From positions 248,001 through 312,000 of the forward strand of contig JAFQBB010000020.1 of assembly GCA_017416805.1 (NCBI GenBank): a stretch of 64,000 nucleotides of DNA. Reading direction: 5' to 3'. The translations under genes and the position numbers were made by a program. The number at the start of each line of letters is the position of its first letter. Position 1 is the first letter of the stretch. The notes below the pieces were generated by a model, which ran no database searches, was not told the DNA's origin, and saw only the letters and a list, made by a program, of their open reading frames with translations. The stretch is from Bacteroidaceae bacterium (GTDB lineage: Bacteria; Bacteroidota; Bacteroidia; Bacteroidales; Bacteroidaceae). Below, piece by piece: positions 5,222 to 53,745 of the stretch.

Positions 5222-5315
5222 TCTCAAAGGAACAGTGCCGCATGGCCCACTAGTCACTAGTAGCTCGTAGCTCACACTCATAACTTGTAGCTAGTCACTA
5301 GTAGCTAGTCACTAT
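5222..5315. repeat. Word-repeat array between the Rid and ABC-F genes (locus E)
   Basis: The separator GCCGCATGGCC (5237-5247) is followed by CACTAGTCACTAGTAGCTCG, TAGCTCACACTCATAACTTG and TAGCTAGTCACTAGTAGCTA, ending flush with the ABC-F stop codon at 5317. It has the same architecture as locus A with a slightly shifted vocabulary (CTAGTCACTAGTAG). No gene or terminator is seen in the 168-bp gap. Confidence 0.75.
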
Positions 5316-10829: not shown

Positions 10830-12695
10830 ATGGCAAATAGTAAAGAAAAACTTTTCGCTGACTTTGCGCCGGTCTCTACCCAAGAGTGGTTGGACAAGAT
10901 CAATGTTGACTTGAAGGGCGCGGACTTTGAAAAGAAATTGGTTTGGAAGACCAATGAGGGTTTTAAAGTGAAGCCCTTCTATCGCAAGGAGGACCTGGAG
11001 AACCTGAAGACTACCGAGGCTTTGCCCGGCGAGTTCCCCTACTTGCGTGGTACAAAAAAGAATGATAACACTTGGTTTGTGCGTCAGGACATCAAGGTGA
11101 ATTGTCCGAAAGAGGCCAATGCCAAGGCTCTGGACATTTTGAACAAGGGGGTGGACTCTATCGGATTCAATATCAACAAGAAGGATCTTTGCCCCGAATA
11201 CATTGAGACCTTGCTTGAAGGCATTTGTGCCGAATGCGTGGAGTTGAACTTCTCCACCTGCCAGGGTGCCACCGTCATGTTGGCCGGATTGCTCGTGGAG
11301 TATTTCACCAAGAAAGGTTACGATTTCGATAAGTTGCAAGGTTCTATCAACTACGACCCCATGGGCAAGATGCTCACCAAGGGTAAGGATGTGAGCAACT
11401 ATATCATGGCTGCCAAGACGTTGGTGGAAATCATGAAGGCATTGCCGAAGTATCGTTGCATCACGGTGAACGCCATCGAACTGAACAATGCCGGCTCGTA
11501 TATCAGCCAGGAGTTGGGCTACGCCCTCGCTTGGGGTAACGAATATTTGAACGCCCTCGTAGAAGCCGGTGTGGATGCTACCGAAGCGGCCAAGAAAATC
11601 AAGTTCAACTTCGGTATCAGTTCGAACTACTTCCTCGAGATTGCCAAATTTCGTGCCGCACGCATGCTTTGGGCGAACATCGTGAAGGAATATGAGCCCA
11701 AGTGCGATTGCGCTTGCAAGATGAAGGCTCACGCCGAGACTTCAACGTTCAACCTCACCTTGTTCGATGCACACGTAAACATGCTCCGTACTCAGACAGA
11801 GGCCATGAGTGCTGCCCTTGCCGGTGTGGACTCAATCACCGTGTCTCCCTTCGACAAGGTTTATCAGGTGGCCGATGACTTCTCTGAGCGCATTGCCCGC
11901 AACCAGCAACTCCTCCTCAAGGAAGAGTGTCACTTCGACAAGGTGGTTGACCCTGCCGCAGGTTCTTATTATATAGAAAACCTGACCGCAAGCATTGCCC
12001 AACAGGCTTGGACAATTTTCCTCGGTGTGGAAGAGGAGGGCGGTATGATGGCCGCCATCAAGGCCGGCAAGGTGCAAGAGGCAGTGAATGCCAGCAATCA
12101 GGCACGCCACGAGGCCGTGTCAAAGCGTCGCGAAATCCTCCTCGGCACCAACCAATATCCTAACTTTACCGAACTTTCTGAAGGCAAGGCCCCGATGGGA
12201 TGTCAGTGCTGTTGTGGTGGCGAACACAAACATGAATGTGAAAAGCCGTTCGCCACATTGGACAAGAGTCGTGCCGCCAGTGAGTTCGAGGCTCTCCGTT
12301 TAGAGACTGAGAACTCAGGCAAACGTCCGAAAGCATTCATGCTGACCATCGGTAACCTGGCCATGCGTCAGGCACGTGCCCAATTCTCATGCAACTTCTT
12401 GGCTTGTGCCGGATATGAAGTGATTGACAACCTTGGCTTCCCCACCGTGGAAGAAGGTGTAGAAGCTGCCATGAAGGCCGGTGCCGACATCGTGGTGCTC
12501 TGCTCAAGCGATGACGAGTATGCCGAATATGCTATCCCCGCCTACCAGGCGCTCAACGGACGTGCCATGTTCATCGTAGCTGGCGCTCCCGCTTGCATGG
12601 ACGACCTGAAGGCCGCCGGCATCGAGAACTTCATCCACGTGCGTTGCAACGTATTGGAAACCCTGCGTGGGTATAATGCGAAACTATTAAAATAA
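10830..12695 (+). CDS. mutA: Methylmalonyl-CoA mutase small (beta) subunit
   Basis: A 621-aa non-catalytic subunit that pairs with MutB to interconvert succinyl-CoA and methylmalonyl-CoA in propionate production. The N-terminal helix DFAPVSTQEWLDKINVDLKG, the barrel segments [18 protein letters not shown] and VDPAAGSYYIENLT, and a C-terminal Rossmann-like domain (ADIVVLCSSDDEYAEYAIPA) match the family. The C-terminal domain lacks the DxHxxG cobalamin motif, as expected for the small subunit. The linker before it holds an unusual Cys/His cluster (C458, C460-462, H466, H468, C470). The gene follows a TACCTTTG promoter element and is separated from mutB by a 490-bp insertion carrying a GxxExxY gene. 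Confidence 0.95.
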   Translation: MANSKEKLFADFAPVSTQEWLDKINVDLKGADFEKKLVWKTNEGFKVKPFYRKEDLENLKTTEALPGEFPYLRGTKKNDNTWFVRQDIKVNCPKEANAKALDILNKGVDSIGFNINKKDLCPEYIETLLEGICAECVELNFSTCQGATVMLAGLLVEYFTKKGYDFDKLQGSINYDPMGKMLTKGKDVSNYIMAAKTLVEIMKALPKYRCITVNAIELNNAGSYISQELGYALAWGNEYLNALVEAGVDATEAAKKIKFNFGISSNYFLEIAKFRAARMLWANIVKEYEPKCDCACKMKAHAETSTFNLTLFDAHVNMLRTQTEAMSAALAGVDSITVSPFDKVYQVADDFSERIARNQQLLLKEECHFDKVVDPAAGSYYIENLTASIAQQAWTIFLGVEEEGGMMAAIKAGKVQEAVNASNQARHEAVSKRREILLGTNQYPNFTELSEGKAPMGCQCCCGGEHKHECEKPFATLDKSRAASEFEALRLETENSGKRPKAFMLTIGNLAMRQARAQFSCNFLACAGYEVIDNLGFPTVEEGVEAAMKAGADIVVLCSSDDEYAEYAIPAYQALNGRAMFIVAGAPACMDDLKAAGIENFIHVRCNVLETLRGYNAKLLK

Positions 12696-12703
12696 GTTTG
12701 TTT

Positions 12704-12731
12704 GAACACAGAGACACGGAGACACAGAGTT
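12704..12731 (+). repeat. Left 28-bp terminal inverted repeat of the GxxExxY unit (locus G)
   Basis: The segment begins GAACACAGAGACACGG and ends ACACAGAGTT. It is the exact reverse complement of 13141-13168. It lies 8 bp after the mutA stop and 4 bp before the GxxExxY start codon. The word ACACAGAGACAC recurs at 50981-51005. Confidence 0.9.
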
Positions 12732-12735
12732 CTTT

Positions 12736-13134
12736 ATGTTTAACTTTACGCGAGAAACATATAATTATTTGAGCCAATATATCATAGGTGCGGCGATTGA
12801 AGTTCACAAGGAACTCGGCCCAGGTTTATTGGAATCGGTTTATGAGACTTGCATGGTTGAAGAATTACAGAACCGAGGACTTCGTGTTGAGAGTCAAGTA
12901 ATTCTCCCGTTATATTATAAAGGAGTTAAATTGGATAAGGAATTCAAAATAGATTTGTTAGTAGAGGACGAAATTGTAGTGGAACTTAAATCTGTTGAAG
13001 AACTAAAGACCGTACATGAAGTCCAATTGTTGACTTATCTGAAATTGGCCAATAAAAAATTGGGATTACTGATAAATTTCAATGTCCCTGTATTGACGCA
13101 AGGAGTAAAGAGACGGATAAATGGAGAACTTTAA
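12736..13134 (+). CDS. GxxExxY family protein (PD-(D/E)XK nuclease-like)
   Basis: A 132-aa cytoplasmic protein with the family's naming motif G30-LL-E33-SV-Y36. A PD-(D/E)XK-like core follows: D73 in FKIDLLVEDEI, E83-L-K85 in VVELKSV, and QLLTYLKL at 97-104. The family is widespread in Bacteroidota and other phyla, often in many copies; its function is unestablished as far as I know. The gene is AT-rich compared with mutA and mutB and lies between them inside perfect 28-bp inverted repeats, so it looks like an insertion into a mutAB operon. No separate promoter is evident; it is probably read through from mutA. The left repeat sits 4 bp upstream of the ATG and may affect ribosome access. Confidence 0.88.
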   Translation: MFNFTRETYNYLSQYIIGAAIEVHKELGPGLLESVYETCMVEELQNRGLRVESQVILPLYYKGVKLDKEFKIDLLVEDEIVVELKSVEELKTVHEVQLLTYLKLANKKLGLLINFNVPVLTQGVKRRINGEL

Positions 13135-13140
13135 ATAAAA

Positions 13141-13168
13141 AACTCTGTGTCTCCGTGTCTCTGTGTTC
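13141..13168 (-). repeat. Right 28-bp terminal inverted repeat of the GxxExxY unit
   Basis: The segment begins AACTCTGTGTCTCCG and ends GTCTCTGTGTTC. It is a perfect inverted copy of 12704-12731. It starts 6 bp after the GxxExxY stop and ends 17 bp before the mutB ATG. No clean target-site duplication is visible outside the repeats. Confidence 0.9.
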
Positions 13169-13185
13169 TAAAAATAAATAAGAAT

Positions 13186-15330
13186 ATGCGTAAGAATTTT
13201 AAAGATATAGACGTGTTTGCCGGATTCAAAGCTCAAAATGGAGCTGAATGGCAACAAGCCAATGGCATTGAAGCCAATTGGAAGACACCGGAGCAGATTG
13301 ATGTGAAGCCGGTATATACGAAGGAAGACCTCGAAGGGATGGAGCACCTCGACTATGTGGCAGGTATTCCTCCTTACCTCCGTGGCCCTTATTCAATGAT
13401 GTACACTTTCCGTCCGTGGACAATCCGTCAGTATGCCGGATTCTCTACCGCCGAGGAGAGTAACGCATTCTATCGTCGTAACTTGGCCAGTGGTCAGAAG
13501 GGACTTTCCGTAGCCTTCGACCTCCCCACACACCGTGGATACGACCCCGACCACGAACGTGTGGTAGGTGACGTAGGTAAGGCTGGTGTGTCCATCTGCT
13601 CATTGGAGAACATGAAGGTGCTGTTCGACGGTATTCCTTTGAACAAGATGTCCGTGTCAATGACCATGAACGGTGCCGTACTTCCCGTCCTCGCCTTTTA
13701 CATCAATGCAGGATTGGAGCAGGGTGCCAAGTTGGAAGAGATGGCAGGTACCATCCAGAATGACATCTTGAAGGAATTCATGGTGCGTAATACCTACATC
13801 TATCCGCCCGCATTCTCTATGAAGATTATCTCTGACATCTTCGAATATACTTCACAGAAGATGCCTAAGTTCAATAGCATCTCCATCTCTGGTTACCACA
13901 TGCAGGAAGCCGGTGCTACGGCCGACATCGAGTTGGCTTACACCCTTGCCGATGGTCTTGAATACCTCCGTGCCGGTGTGGCCGCAGGTATCGACATTGA
14001 CGCCTTTGCACCGCGTCTCTCATTCTTCTGGGCCATTGGTATGAACCACTTTATGGAGATTGCCAAGATGCGTGCCGCCCGTATGTTGTGGGCCAAGATT
14101 GTGAAGCAGTTCAACCCGAAGAATCCGAAGTCATTGGCTCTTCGTACCCACTCACAGACTTCAGGCTGGAGTCTCACCGAGCAGGATCCGTTCAACAATG
14201 TAGGACGTACCTGTATCGAAGCGATGGCCGCAGCCCTTGGTCATACTCAGTCACTCCATACCAACGCATTGGACGAAGCCATTGCATTGCCTACTGACTT
14301 CTCGGCGCGTATTGCCCGTAACACTCAGATTTACATTCAGGAAGAGACCAACGTGTGCAAGAACGTTGACCCATGGGGCGGTTCTTACTACGTAGAGGCT
14401 TTGACCAACGAGTTGGCTCACCGTGCATGGGAGCACATCCAGGAAATCGAAAGCCTCGGAGGTATGGCCAAGGCTATCGAAACAGGTATTCCCAAGATGC
14501 GTATCGAAGAGGCCGCAGCCCGCACTCAGGCACGTATCGACGGTGGCACACAGACTATCGTGGGTACTAACAAGTACCGTCTGGAGAAGGAAGACCCCAT
14601 CGACATCCTGGAAGTTGATAACACCGCCGTGCGTCTCGAGCAGATTGAGAACCTCAAGCGTCTGAAGGAAGGTCGCAACGAGGCCGAAGTGCAGAAGGCT
14701 CTCGAAGCCATCACCCGTTGTGTGGAGACCAAGGAAGGCAACCTGTTGGAACTGGCCGTAGAGGCCGCTCGCGTGCGTGCAACATTGGGCGAAATCTCCG
14801 ATGCTTGCGAAAAGGTTGTCGGACGTTACAAAGCAATAATTAGAACTATATCAGGCGTGTATTCATCAGAAAACAAGAAGGATGCAGATTTCGTACGTGC
14901 GTGCGAACTGACCGAAGAATTTGCGAAGAAAGAGGGACGTCGTCCGCGTATCATGATTGCCAAGATGGGTCAGGACGGACACGACCGTGGTGCAAAAGTT
15001 GTAGCTACAGGTTATGCCGATTGTGGCTTCGATGTGGATATGGGACCGCTCTTCCAGACTCCTGCCGAGGCTGCTCGCGATGCCGTAGAGAACGACGTAC
15101 ATATCGTAGGTGTATCTTCACTCGCCGCCGGACACAAGACTCTCGTGCCGCAGATTATCGATGAGTTGAAGAAACTTGGTCGTGAAGACATCATGGTGAT
15201 TGCCGGTGGTGTTATTCCCGCTCAGGATTACGACTTCCTCTATCAGGCAGGCGTAGCCGCCATCTTCGGCCCTGGTACATCCGTATCAAAAGCCGCATGC
15301 CAGATACTTGAAATGTTGCTTGAGGAGTAA
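13186..15330 (+). CDS. mutB: Methylmalonyl-CoA mutase large (alpha, catalytic) subunit
   Basis: A 714-aa adenosylcobalamin-dependent mutase subunit. The N-terminal TIM barrel has [56 protein letters not shown] and the [12 protein letters not shown] segment. The C-terminal domain has the cobalamin-binding motif DGHDRG (D597, H599, G602). The frame opens 13 codons earlier, but those codons (SPCLCV...) translate the terminal repeat of the GxxExxY unit, so the ATG at 13186 is the start. Normally mutA and mutB are nearly adjacent; here the inserted unit may reduce coupling. pfp follows after 81 bp. Confidence 0.97.
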
Positions 15331-49411: not shown

Positions 49412-49749
49412 AATGTGATAGGGTTGGTATATAATTATAATGAAGTATCTATAACATAGGTGCAAAAATACAAACAGATGGCTGTAAAAGCAAGAAAAAC
49501 TATGTTAATAATATATTTCGTGCCACAAAATATATATTTTAAACCCTGAAATATATATTTCGTGCTTTGAAATATATATTTCGTGGTTAGAAATAAATGG
49601 TATATATAATTTCCAGGAGAAAGTCTGTGTATATTAACGATTTTCGTTGATAACAGTTTGTTACTTTGGAATAAAATCCGTGCCTAAATTTATTTTTGAC
49701 ACCCCCTCAGAGTCAGGACGAGACATTGGAGTGGCTCGTAGGTCAGGTA
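49412..49749. promoter_or_regulatory. Regulatory gap upstream of the HU-like gene
   Basis: This 338-bp gap holds a minus-strand -7 element TATTTTTG (plus-strand CAAAAATA, 49463-49470) and CTTG at the -33 place (plus-strand CAAG, 49491-49494). The four-copy operator array lies at 49506-49585. The remaining 160 bp up to the coaBC stop show no frame and no terminator hairpin. Confidence 0.6.
49506..49585. promoter_or_regulatory. Four-copy palindromic operator array, 21-bp period
   Basis: A 17-bp unit GAAATATATATTTCGTG occurs intact at 49548-49564 and 49569-49585. Degenerate copies at 49506-49522 (ATATTTCGTG end kept) and 49527-49543 (AAAATATATATTTT core) are in exact register. Each unit has the palindrome GAAATATATATTTC or a variant, and starts are 21 bp apart, two helical turns, so bound proteins would line up on one face. 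It lies just upstream of the HU-like promoter. Confidence 0.75.
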
Positions 49750-50961
49750 TTAAATCCTTTGTTCTAATTCGTTGATGATATCTGTAGCCACCTCATTCTT
49801 CGGCTTCAATGGATATTCTTTGATTTCGTTTTCTGATACGATGGCAATCTTGTTGGTATCGTGGCGGAAGCCGGCGCCTTTATCGTTGAGAGAATTCAGT
49901 ACGATGAAGTCAAAGTTCTTCCGGCGAAGTTTGTCTTGAGCATGGGCCATTTCGTTGGTTGTCTCGAGGGCAAATCCTACGAGTATTTGGCCTTTGCACT
50001 TTGTTTTTCCCAAGGAAGCGGCAATATCCTTTGTGGGTTTCAGACGAAGTGTCAGGTCGTCCCCTTCGCGCTTAATCTTTTGTTCGGCTTTCACTTCGGG
50101 CGTGAAATCAGCTACGGCGGCACATAGGATGCCTGCATCGCACGTTGGGTAGTGTGTCATGGCTTCGTCGTACATCTCCTCGGCAGATTCTACATCAATG
50201 CGGTGTATGGCCGGATGTTGGCAGGTCATGTTCACGGGGCCGCTGATGAGTATCACCTCGGCGCCACGGCGGGCACACTCTTCGGCCAAAGCATATCCCA
50301 TCTTTCCTGATGAATAATTGCCGATGAAGCGTACTGGATCAATTTTCTCGTATGTGGGTCCTGCAGTAATTAATACTTTTTTTGCGGCCAACGGAGAACA
50401 AGTTTTTTCCTTGTTTGAGAAAAATTTCTTGATGGCTAATAGGATGTTCTCCGGTTCTTCCATGCGTCCTTTTCCCACAAGATGGCTGGCCAAGAAACCT
50501 TCACCCGGCTCAATGATGTGATTGCCATAAGAGCGTAGGGTGTCCAGGTTTTGCTGGGTAGAGGGGTGGGCGTACATATCCAAATCCATGGCAGGTGCCA
50601 CAAAGACAGGTGCCTTCATTGACAGGTAAGTGGTGATGAGCATATTATCGGCCACTCCATGTGCCATTTTGCCAATGGTGGAAGCTGTGGCTGGGGCAAT
50701 AATCATGGCATCTGCCCAAAGGCCAAGAGCTACGTGGCTATGCCATGTGCCATCGCGTTGGGCAAAGAAGTCGCTGATTACCGGTTTGCTTGTAAGTGCC
50801 GACAAGGTGATGGGAGTGATGAACTCTTTACCTGCCGGTGTGATGACTACTTGTACTTCGGCACCCTCCTTGATGAGGCCGCGTATCAGGATGCAAGCCT
50901 TGTAAGCGGCGATGCTTCCTGTGATACCAAGTACTATTTTTTTTCCTTGTAGTATGCTCAT
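49750..50961 (-). CDS. coaBC: Bifunctional phosphopantothenoylcysteine decarboxylase/synthetase
   Basis: A 403-aa coenzyme A biosynthesis enzyme. The N-terminal flavin decarboxylase has GKKIVLGITGSIAAYKACIL, WHSHVALGLWADAMIIAPAT and the PAMDLDMY active-site loop. The C-terminal synthetase has ITAGPTYEKIDPVRFIGNYSSGKMG and KPTKDIAASLG. The ATG at 50961 (MSILQGKKIVL) matches the family start; the frame opens eight codons earlier in a word-repeat region. It follows the exonuclease gene, as commonly seen in Bacteroides dnaN-exonuclease-coaBC groups; recN, often next, is not here. Confidence 0.95.
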   Translation of the reverse strand: MSILQGKKIVLGITGSIAAYKACILIRGLIKEGAEVQVVITPAGKEFITPITLSALTSKPVISDFFAQRDGTWHSHVALGLWADAMIIAPATASTIGKMAHGVADNMLITTYLSMKAPVFVAPAMDLDMYAHPSTQQNLDTLRSYGNHIIEPGEGFLASHLVGKGRMEEPENILLAIKKFFSNKEKTCSPLAAKKVLITAGPTYEKIDPVRFIGNYSSGKMGYALAEECARRGAEVILISGPVNMTCQHPAIHRIDVESAEEMYDEAMTHYPTCDAGILCAAVADFTPEVKAEQKIKREGDDLTLRLKPTKDIAASLGKTKCKGQILVGFALETTNEMAHAQDKLRRKNFDFIVLNSLNDKGAGFRHDTNKIAIVSENEIKEYPLKPKNEVATDIINELEQRI

Positions 50962-50978
50962 AATCTTTTCTTTTGTTT

Positions 50979-51120
50979 GGAACACAGAGACACAGAGTCA
51001 CAGAGAATATTAATGTCTCTGAATATCATGAAACTCTGAATCATTGTGCCTCTGCTTCTCTGTGTCCTAAATATCATCATCGATATTCACTTGTAGCTCG
51101 TAGCCCATCACTCGTAGCTA
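50979..51120. repeat. Word-repeat array between coaBC and the exonuclease gene (locus I)
   Basis: A left arm GGAACACAGAGACACAGAG plus TCACAGAG (50979-51005) faces an inverse GTGCCTCTGCTTCTCTGTG plus TCC (51046-51067), the same words as the GxxExxY terminal repeats but with no gene between them. A TTGTAGCTCGTAGCCCATCA, CTCGTAGCTA block follows (51091-51120) and supplies the exonuclease stop codon (51118-51120). Confidence 0.8.
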
Positions 51121-53660: not shown

Positions 53661-53745
53661 ATTTTAGGCGCGGATTGCGCGAATTACACGGATTTAATTC
53701 GTTTGATAAAATTTCCGTGTAATTCGCGCAATCCGCGCCTAAAAT
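53661..53745. terminator. 32-bp perfect inverted repeat, bidirectional terminator-like (locus K)
   Basis: The left arm (53661-53692) begins ATTTTAGGCGCGGATTGCGC and ends GAATTACACGGA; the right arm (53714-53745) is its exact reverse complement; the loop is 21 nt. The GCGCGGATTGCGCGAATTAC word is one of the word-array vocabularies. It lies between convergent genes, three bases from the PL11 stop, so it can act as a terminator in both directions. Confidence 0.8.

Follow-up and report, generated by a model that had tools for sequence, protein, structure and literature searches.

A single-gene unit with inverted ends between mutA and mutB

The window (the whole 64,000-nt stretch of DNA analysed, from G000, a 3.16-Mb draft genome estimated to be 91% complete) contains two plus-strand genes for methylmalonyl-CoA mutase—mutA, encoding the small subunit (10830..12695; TIGR00642, E 7e-206), and mutB, encoding the mutase (13186..15330; NF006944)—with an insert of about 470 bp between them. 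The left terminal inverted repeat of this insert (12704..12731, plus strand), made of tandem CACAGAGA-type words, is the perfect complement of the right one (13141..13168, minus strand) over 28 bp, and 93% complementarity persists over 40 nt (12698-12737/13135-13174). The left repeat starts 8 nt past the mutA stop codon, and the right one ends 17 nt ahead of the mutB ATG at 13186. Enclosed by the repeats is the gene of a 132-aa GxxExxY protein (12736..13134, plus strand; TIGR04256, PF13366 PDDEXK_3), which is in sense with the mut operon and is the sole listed open reading frame of at least 60 aa lying wholly within them. A sequence-only reading had described exactly these inverted ends around one gene, and had called the insert more AT-rich than its neighbours; both descriptions hold, GC being 0.32-0.41 within the insert, compared with 0.50-0.58 for mutA and 0.44-0.56 for mutB. 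The unit word has six matches in the window, where 0.03 would be expected by chance. No recognised transposase gene is present in the unit, whose single reading frame is PF13366. An exact match to the promoter pattern TTTG-N17-23-TANNTTTG was likewise absent from the element and, because no promoter was recognised there, the unit would be read from the host operon.

The window protein matches both TIGR04256 (E 6e-45, 152.3 bits; cut-off 35) and PF13366 (E 7e-44, 149.4 bits; cut-off 22), and shows no match to PF05635, the S23p family. Five residues, D73, E83, K85, Q97, and Y101, are invariant in an alignment with 12 diverse relatives, bearing out the PD-(D/E)XK-like core (D73, E83xK85) that had been read from the single sequence. 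The pattern of D, ExK, and QxxxY is that of a PD-(D/E)XK-type nuclease core; it is conserved in GxxExxY as in Cas4/RecB-type nucleases, and a weak HMM similarity links the family to Cas4, whereas GxxExxY proteins are only about 130 aa long and the window protein has a single cysteine. A profile search for a solved structure of a relative returned three non-significant matches (E 0.11-0.63). The conserved residues point to a nuclease-like protein. Related GxxExxY genes are under strong purifying selection: dN/dS could be measured for eight pairs and lies between 0.02 and 0.10 in all but one, whose value of 0.40 rests on five changes (of the remaining pairs, eleven had reached saturation and one lacked synonymous changes). 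A literature search, with preprints and most subscription papers outside its scope, found no description of a GxxExxY function, mechanism, or unit, and in the papers found to use the name it appears only as an annotation.

Filled and empty gaps among relatives

Within the genus, the mutA-mutB gap holds the GxxExxY unit in G000 and its sister species G002, a different gene in G005, and nothing in ten other genomes, where the two genes lie 2-17 nt apart (the junctions of G006 and G008 were unreadable and are left out of this count). In a wider family sample of 29 other junctions—best mutB matches with a locus, seven of them from the same genus—25 are at most 25 nt long and the other four are 44-81 nt long with no gene; seven of the 25 short junctions were computed as -4 owing to overrun of the mutA stop, as the filled G000 junction was computed as 442 and should be 489. 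The expectation that mutA and mutB are normally almost contiguous was therefore borne out, and the empty sites for which the junction was to be checked exist; the insert is not universal at its site. It is a discrete unit bounded by inverted repeats and absent from most relatives read. Two of the longer family junctions (L261 and L262, from G064 and G082) are 81-nt gaps whose GAACACAA...TTGTGTTC arms stand out best in L261; they look like the gene-less hairpin remnant of a unit that lost its gene.

The wider distribution of GxxExxY is patchy. The gene was found in 57 of 151 family genomes, at up to seven places per genome, and the titles of matching records name Bacteroidota, cyanobacteria, Planctomycetota, Acidobacteria, Chloroflexota, Proteobacteria, Armatimonadetes, and Methanosarcinales, among others. 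With one protein query, none of 50,697 phage records and eight of 72,556 plasmid records were matched, on which counts we reject a phage or plasmid vector for the unit; a pattern-limited search of viral contigs gave five distant matches.

Filled alleles in related species show signs of movement. A 621-nt tract (12615..13235), covering the unit and 156 nt of flank, is identical between G000 and G002, while outside the unit the two differ at 73 of 2549 nt (2.9%; 11600-14613, leaving out a gapped stretch before 11600). At that rate 13.3 differences would be expected in the unit; the next-longest identical run is 126 nt, and uniform shuffles of the differences gave a run of at least 600 nt once in 20,000. 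For this one species pair, recent lateral copying is strongly indicated by the alignment. Other pairs are less clear. The unit is 96-100% identical between G074 and G123, where most of the nearest 2 kb is at 70-92%, and 98-99% identical between G027 and G074, where identity within about 1.5 kb is 84-97% upstream and 58-82% downstream; because both alignments contain other stretches at 98-100%, they are only suggestive of lateral copying. Between G121 and G074, the unit is at 91-92% beside stretches of 98-99%, which speaks against such a pattern. The hosts of L069 and L175 belong to one genus and have mutB 96% alike, with same-gap GxxExxY proteins only 55% alike, a further sign of lateral exchange, although a single origin of these proteins is not rejected (AU p 0.22). 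Transfer into the same gap is equally well explained by ordinary homologous recombination.

Inverted repeats and operon-gap placement of GxxExxY loci

All three GxxExxY genes found in G000 are bounded by inverted repeats, each of its own word type: CACAGAGA (28 bp, perfect), CACGGATTT (21 bp), and CGCAGATGA (21 bp). To place these units in a wider sample we used named and family loci, together 159 GxxExxY genes. A one-genome-per-species collection gave at least 581 matches, of which the 80 with the best scores make up the named loci, a set weighted towards the GPGLLES subfamily; the family set includes forty full-length places, mostly high-scoring, that had lacked a locus and were added. A gapped inverted-repeat score of at least 14 was reached at 111 of 158 loci, against 13 of 1739 shifted windows, which come from the longer named loci only because family loci were too short; the other 47 loci fall below 14. 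One G002 contig is present twice among the 158 loci, as L034 and L090, and there are near-copies in L071/L072, L182/L185, L203/L205, and L068/L172; leaving out L034, L090, L072, L172, L185, and L205 gives 106 of 152. Ungapped scores of at least 16 were seen at 43 of 78 family and 38 of 74 named loci versus 10 of 3411 shifted windows, again from the longer named loci, some of these ten hits probably being second GxxExxY copies (L143 and L133 each have two); controls centred on open reading frames gave 2 of 600, versus 40 of 79 family and 33 of 80 named loci. When the left arm of one locus was paired with the right arm of another, 62 of 1495 combinations reached 14. Arms thus match their own partner far better than the arms of other loci, and are pair-specific rather than just copies of a common word.

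The proposal that GxxExxY genes in general are flanked by inverted repeats is therefore upheld, and the single-gene unit recurs across many bacterial phyla and archaea. The further idea that the gene is bound to one type of repeat word fails. Several loci have arms with TTCACC followed inward by CRCRRAG-type words, others have GGATT, GATGA, GAATT, or unrelated words, and three types occur in G000 alone; with so many different words, the protein is not tied to one of them.

Units with strong inverted repeats sit mostly in operon gaps, in sense. Defining strong as a score of at least 18 (80 loci after L034, L090, and L205 were dropped, with a neighbour called on both sides in 70), we found 53 of 70 between two genes that both run in the GxxExxY direction, (+,+), and three between two genes that both run opposite to it. 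Ordinary genes of at most 1 kb in the named loci, by crude calls, gave 80 of 168 in the (+,+) arrangement (Fisher p 9e-5 versus units). In the 53 (+,+) units, the median distance is 11 nt from the upstream stop to the beginning of the left arm and 22 nt from the end of the right arm to the next start.

Particular gaps are used repeatedly: 51 of 158 loci occupy 16 gaps that are used more than once, and mutA-mutB is filled at ten of the 158 (nine when G000 and G002 count once). Named gaps include mutA-mutB, korA-korB, rmlD-prfC, sdhA-sdhB, trpE-trpG, and purE-ispG; at one further gap sufC is confirmed as a neighbour, and its partner, a gene without a family match, is presumably sufD. Gap identity follows the GxxExxY protein tree (18 label changes versus 38.5 when shuffled), and particular protein lineages prefer particular gaps. 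The preference is not absolute: the mutA-mutB proteins as one clade are rejected (AU p 0.002, for a group chosen after viewing the tree), and members from other gaps nest inside their lineage.

Among the strong-repeat loci, with three copies dropped, no clear target-site duplication was established. Direct repeats of length at least 5 at the unit ends numbered 1, 2, 2, 3, and 8 for end offsets of 0, 1, 2, 4, and 8, versus 0.4, 1.0, 1.9, 3.6, and 8.0 expected; those of at least 7 numbered 0, 1, 1, 1, and 3 versus 0.03, 0.11, 0.28, 0.54, and 0.92, and the p values for mean length ranged from 0.01 to 0.16. An Rfam-type search of 11 loci, most of them without a called neighbour reading frame, gave a single small-RNA match, to 5_ureB_sRNA in L122 (6628-6920, 100.5 bits), downstream of the GxxExxY unit.

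A second protein family in the same gaps

The gene in the mutA-mutB gap of G005 belongs to TIGR02436/PF05635, annotated as '23S rRNA-intervening sequence protein'. In the genus, all 24 tested TIGR02436 genes have flanking inverted repeats (score at least 16) and 22 sit in (+,+) gaps; 26 of 30 loci had been taken up, the other four being weak partial matches, and one control window reached 16. In the family, where 24 of 27 loci were tested and incomplete ones skipped, 20 have flanking repeats, 17 of those 20 in (+,+) gaps, and none of 120 control windows reached 14. Overall, 44 of 48 tested TIGR02436 genes are in such units. Six gaps are common to both families—mutA-mutB, rmlD-prfC, korA-korB, sdhA-sdhB, a kduI|gluconate 5-dehydrogenase-like gap, and one unnamed gap—and rmlD-prfC holds GxxExxY in G000 and TIGR02436 in G002. 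By eye, the words of TIGR02436 units are unlike those of GxxExxY units. Overlapping rows of TAGCTCGTAGC-type words, about 21 bp apart, also occur in G000 (C56:12205-13255, C29:22266-22445) and resemble the words of TIGR02436 unit L210. Among the 151 family genomes, 50 have both families, seven GxxExxY only, 27 TIGR02436 only, and 67 neither (co-occurrence p 8e-13, ignoring kinship). Since TIGR02436 units share gaps and design without a recognised nuclease, a nuclease may not be needed, and it may be just one of perhaps several ways for a unit to be maintained.

The presence of an rRNA-intervening-sequence family in the same gap as GxxExxY raises the possibility that the units act in RNA, as intervening sequences of mRNA: the arms would pair with each other in the transcript of the operon, and cutting by RNase III would render the insertion harmless. 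The rRNA intervening sequences described are 428-444 nt long, with a 28-bp terminal inverted-repeat stem, one small open reading frame, and excision by RNase III; their GC is below that of the host, they are sporadic and thought to be horizontally acquired, and their protein (S23p) has no known function (PMC4990558). The units resemble them in size, stem length, single reading frame, low GC, and sporadic spread, and their sense bias suits the same explanation, as does the predicted transcript fold, in which the arms pair (z -6.2). Among same-gap units (28 non-independent pairs), 76 of 131 changes in the left arm are matched in the right, but matched changes would also follow from correction, inversion, or replacement of arms at the DNA level. 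Selection on pairing in the sense RNA should leave an excess of G.U over A.C mismatches, and the wobble test was negative, with 166 G.U versus 200 A.C in 145 elements (leaving out L034, L090, L205, L072, L172, L185, and the four-helix near-copies L222, L232, L236, and L330). In the absence of a G.U excess we read the arms as DNA-level ends and, despite the likeness to rRNA intervening sequences, give the RNA-level explanation a low weight, at roughly one chance among five.

Gene-less hairpins and repeat words

The word of the mutA-mutB unit recurs without a gene in another co-directional gap of the window, at 50976..51071. The inverted pair previously placed at 50979-51067 does exist there, as an imperfect one: its arms (50976-51002/51045-51071) are 81% complementary and separated by a 42-nt loop. 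The gap (50952-51118) lies between two minus-strand genes of 411 and 254 aa, which we take to be coaBC-like and exonuclease-like, respectively, and is a hot spot for hairpins, with other words in G006/G007 and in G008, a palindrome in G003, other sequence in G009, and only 16-33 nt in G001, G002, and G010-G014. Compared by eye with the empty G002 site, the ends of the hairpin show no duplication.

Gene-less CACAGAG hairpins are common in G000 and share the tip GAACACAGAG with the mutA-mutB element. By word-pattern calls, 12 of 13 pair-type word clusters in G000 loci lie between co-directional genes; in G007 the figure is 15 of 23 clusters with two neighbours, which random gaps might also give. 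At L017 and L028, gene-less hairpins are nested in a larger hairpin of related words. Two further word types occur in the window: a GAATT/GGATT-type pair at 53678-53694, representing another word family, and short, mutually inverted ATATATTTCGTG repeats at 49511-49598, whose word is unrelated to the others.

From the sequence alone it had been proposed that these word repeats are mobilised or maintained by the nuclease-like GxxExxY protein, with gene-less hairpins as non-autonomous derivatives; whether word arrays are confined to genomes that carry the gene had been suggested as a check. The strong association of GxxExxY with inverted repeats and the shared GAACACAGAG tip fit this proposal. 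So does the count of CACAGAG words, which rises with GxxExxY copy number across 15 genus genomes (rho 0.67, p 0.006; kinship and completeness ignored), and G010 and G013, in which neither gene family was found, have one and zero word matches. Confinement of the words to GxxExxY genomes does not follow, however: G005 has 12 exact matches and no GxxExxY found, and G007 and G006 have 79 and 23, each with one GxxExxY found that carries other words (all three assemblies are incomplete, at 76-81%). The hairpin words in the coaBC-like gap, moreover, vary from species to species, and TIGR02436, which has its own words, occupies the same gaps; word count also correlates with TIGR02436 matches (rho 0.59 in 15 genomes, with weak partial matches counted and kinship and completeness ignored). 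Since an unrelated family makes the same unit and CACAGAG hairpins occur where no GxxExxY was found, GxxExxY alone probably does not account for mobilisation, and while its link to inverted repeats and to word number stands, we consider the proposal as a whole improbable.

An equally doubtful explanation is that the hairpins are MITE/REP-like repeats moved by another enzyme, and that GxxExxY and the four-helix-bundle protein are cargo lodged between the arms. The gene-less hairpins are indeed common, sometimes nested, and variable between species at one gap, and the two cargo families are unrelated. A conserved core, GTGCCGCATGG, possibly a recognition sequence common to the hairpin repeats, has 28 copies in G000 versus two of the reversed pattern; judged by eye, most copies adjoin word arrays of various types or separate them, and the core also occurs in the arms of GxxExxY units L002/L035. 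In the window it is found exactly at 124-134 and 5235-5245 and with one mismatch at 184-194 and 239-249. Its GCC-GCAT-GGC could form a mini-hairpin, and a CGCAGATGACGCAGAT word array, of the same word as in GxxExxY unit L003, lies between two core copies at 144-168. As for the enzyme, Y1_Tnp (PF01797) has weak matches in the word-rich G007 (28.6 bits) and G008 (29.5 bits; cut-off 23). G001 and G003 likewise have weak matches that pass the cut-off, and the match in G012 is clear, but there is none in G000, G002, G005, or G006, all of which have the words; these absences make a RAYT mobiliser less probable. The pair-specific arms also speak against passive cargo, as do the finding of just two cargo families in this material and the purifying selection on GxxExxY, which suggest that the proteins matter.

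Interpretation and relation to known elements

We regard the insert, with about even confidence, as a single-gene mobile element akin to an intervening sequence but resident in operons of protein genes, which would spread mainly through homing-like copying from a gap to its counterpart. At the DNA level its inverted repeats would serve as termini or fold into hairpins, and the PD-(D/E)XK-type protein would probably cut either the empty gap or the hairpin. A filled gap would then act as template for repairing an empty one, or the unit would be carried across by ordinary recombination in the conserved genes on either side; the gene-less word hairpins would be related to this repeat system or derived from it. 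The mutA-mutB gap does show both filled and empty alleles among relatives, as a homing site would. That GxxExxY is instead a normal resident gene of its operon, with hairpins serving in regulation or termination, as sense orientation and purifying selection might suggest, is very improbable given the empty gaps, the patchy distribution (57 of 151 genomes), the unrelated gene in the same gap, and the tract identical between diverged species.

Measured against known systems, this putative mobile element stands close to the intervening sequences of 23S rRNA. The earlier statement that no mechanism has been described applies to GxxExxY itself, for which we found none, but overlooks this precedent. 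Both have terminal inverted repeats able to form a stem around a single small reading frame, low GC, and a sporadic distribution, and the intervening-sequence family PF05635/TIGR02436 occupies the mutA-mutB gap of the sister species G005. The unit differs in lying between the protein genes mutA and mutB and not in a 23S rRNA helix, in encoding a PD-(D/E)XK-type GxxExxY protein and not S23p/PF05635, and in having arms of tandem short words with no signature of RNA pairing.

Homing endonuclease genes (HEGs) are known in group I introns and inteins and as free-standing genes, and PD-(D/E)XK homing enzymes exist. The unit shares with such elements its one-gene composition, its empty and filled alleles, a lineage mostly kept to one site, and signs of co-transferred flank; it is unlike them in its inverted ends, absence of self-splicing, operon-gap sites, and only putative cleavage, and in that an unrelated gene family uses the same sites. 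REP/REPIN-RAYT systems and MITEs consist of intergenic palindromic repeats in tens of copies with rarer gene-bearing forms, an organisation also seen here, whereas G000 has no Y1 transposase match, the unit gene is nuclease-like or a four-helix protein, and the arms consist of variable tandem words.

More tentatively, and with less confidence than in the element itself, the units may form a class of minimal elements of operon gaps that spans the domains of life, each made of one gene between inverted repeats of tandem words. Its two unrelated proteins, one a Cas4/RecB-like nuclease and the other the four-helix protein of rRNA intervening sequences, would be interchangeable as cargo or drivers of one insertion process that recognises co-directional gaps and not a sequence, rRNA intervening sequences being the special case that landed in rRNA.

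As the gene of a mobile unit bounded by inverted repeats, GxxExxY gains a biology for a family found in many phyla, and its units tie that family to rRNA intervening sequences. They would account for small 'hypothetical' genes between the subunit genes of mutAB, sdhAB, korAB, and trpEG, and they make two ideas testable—that an element can enter an operon without wrecking it, and that homing can be driven by a 130-aa nuclease.
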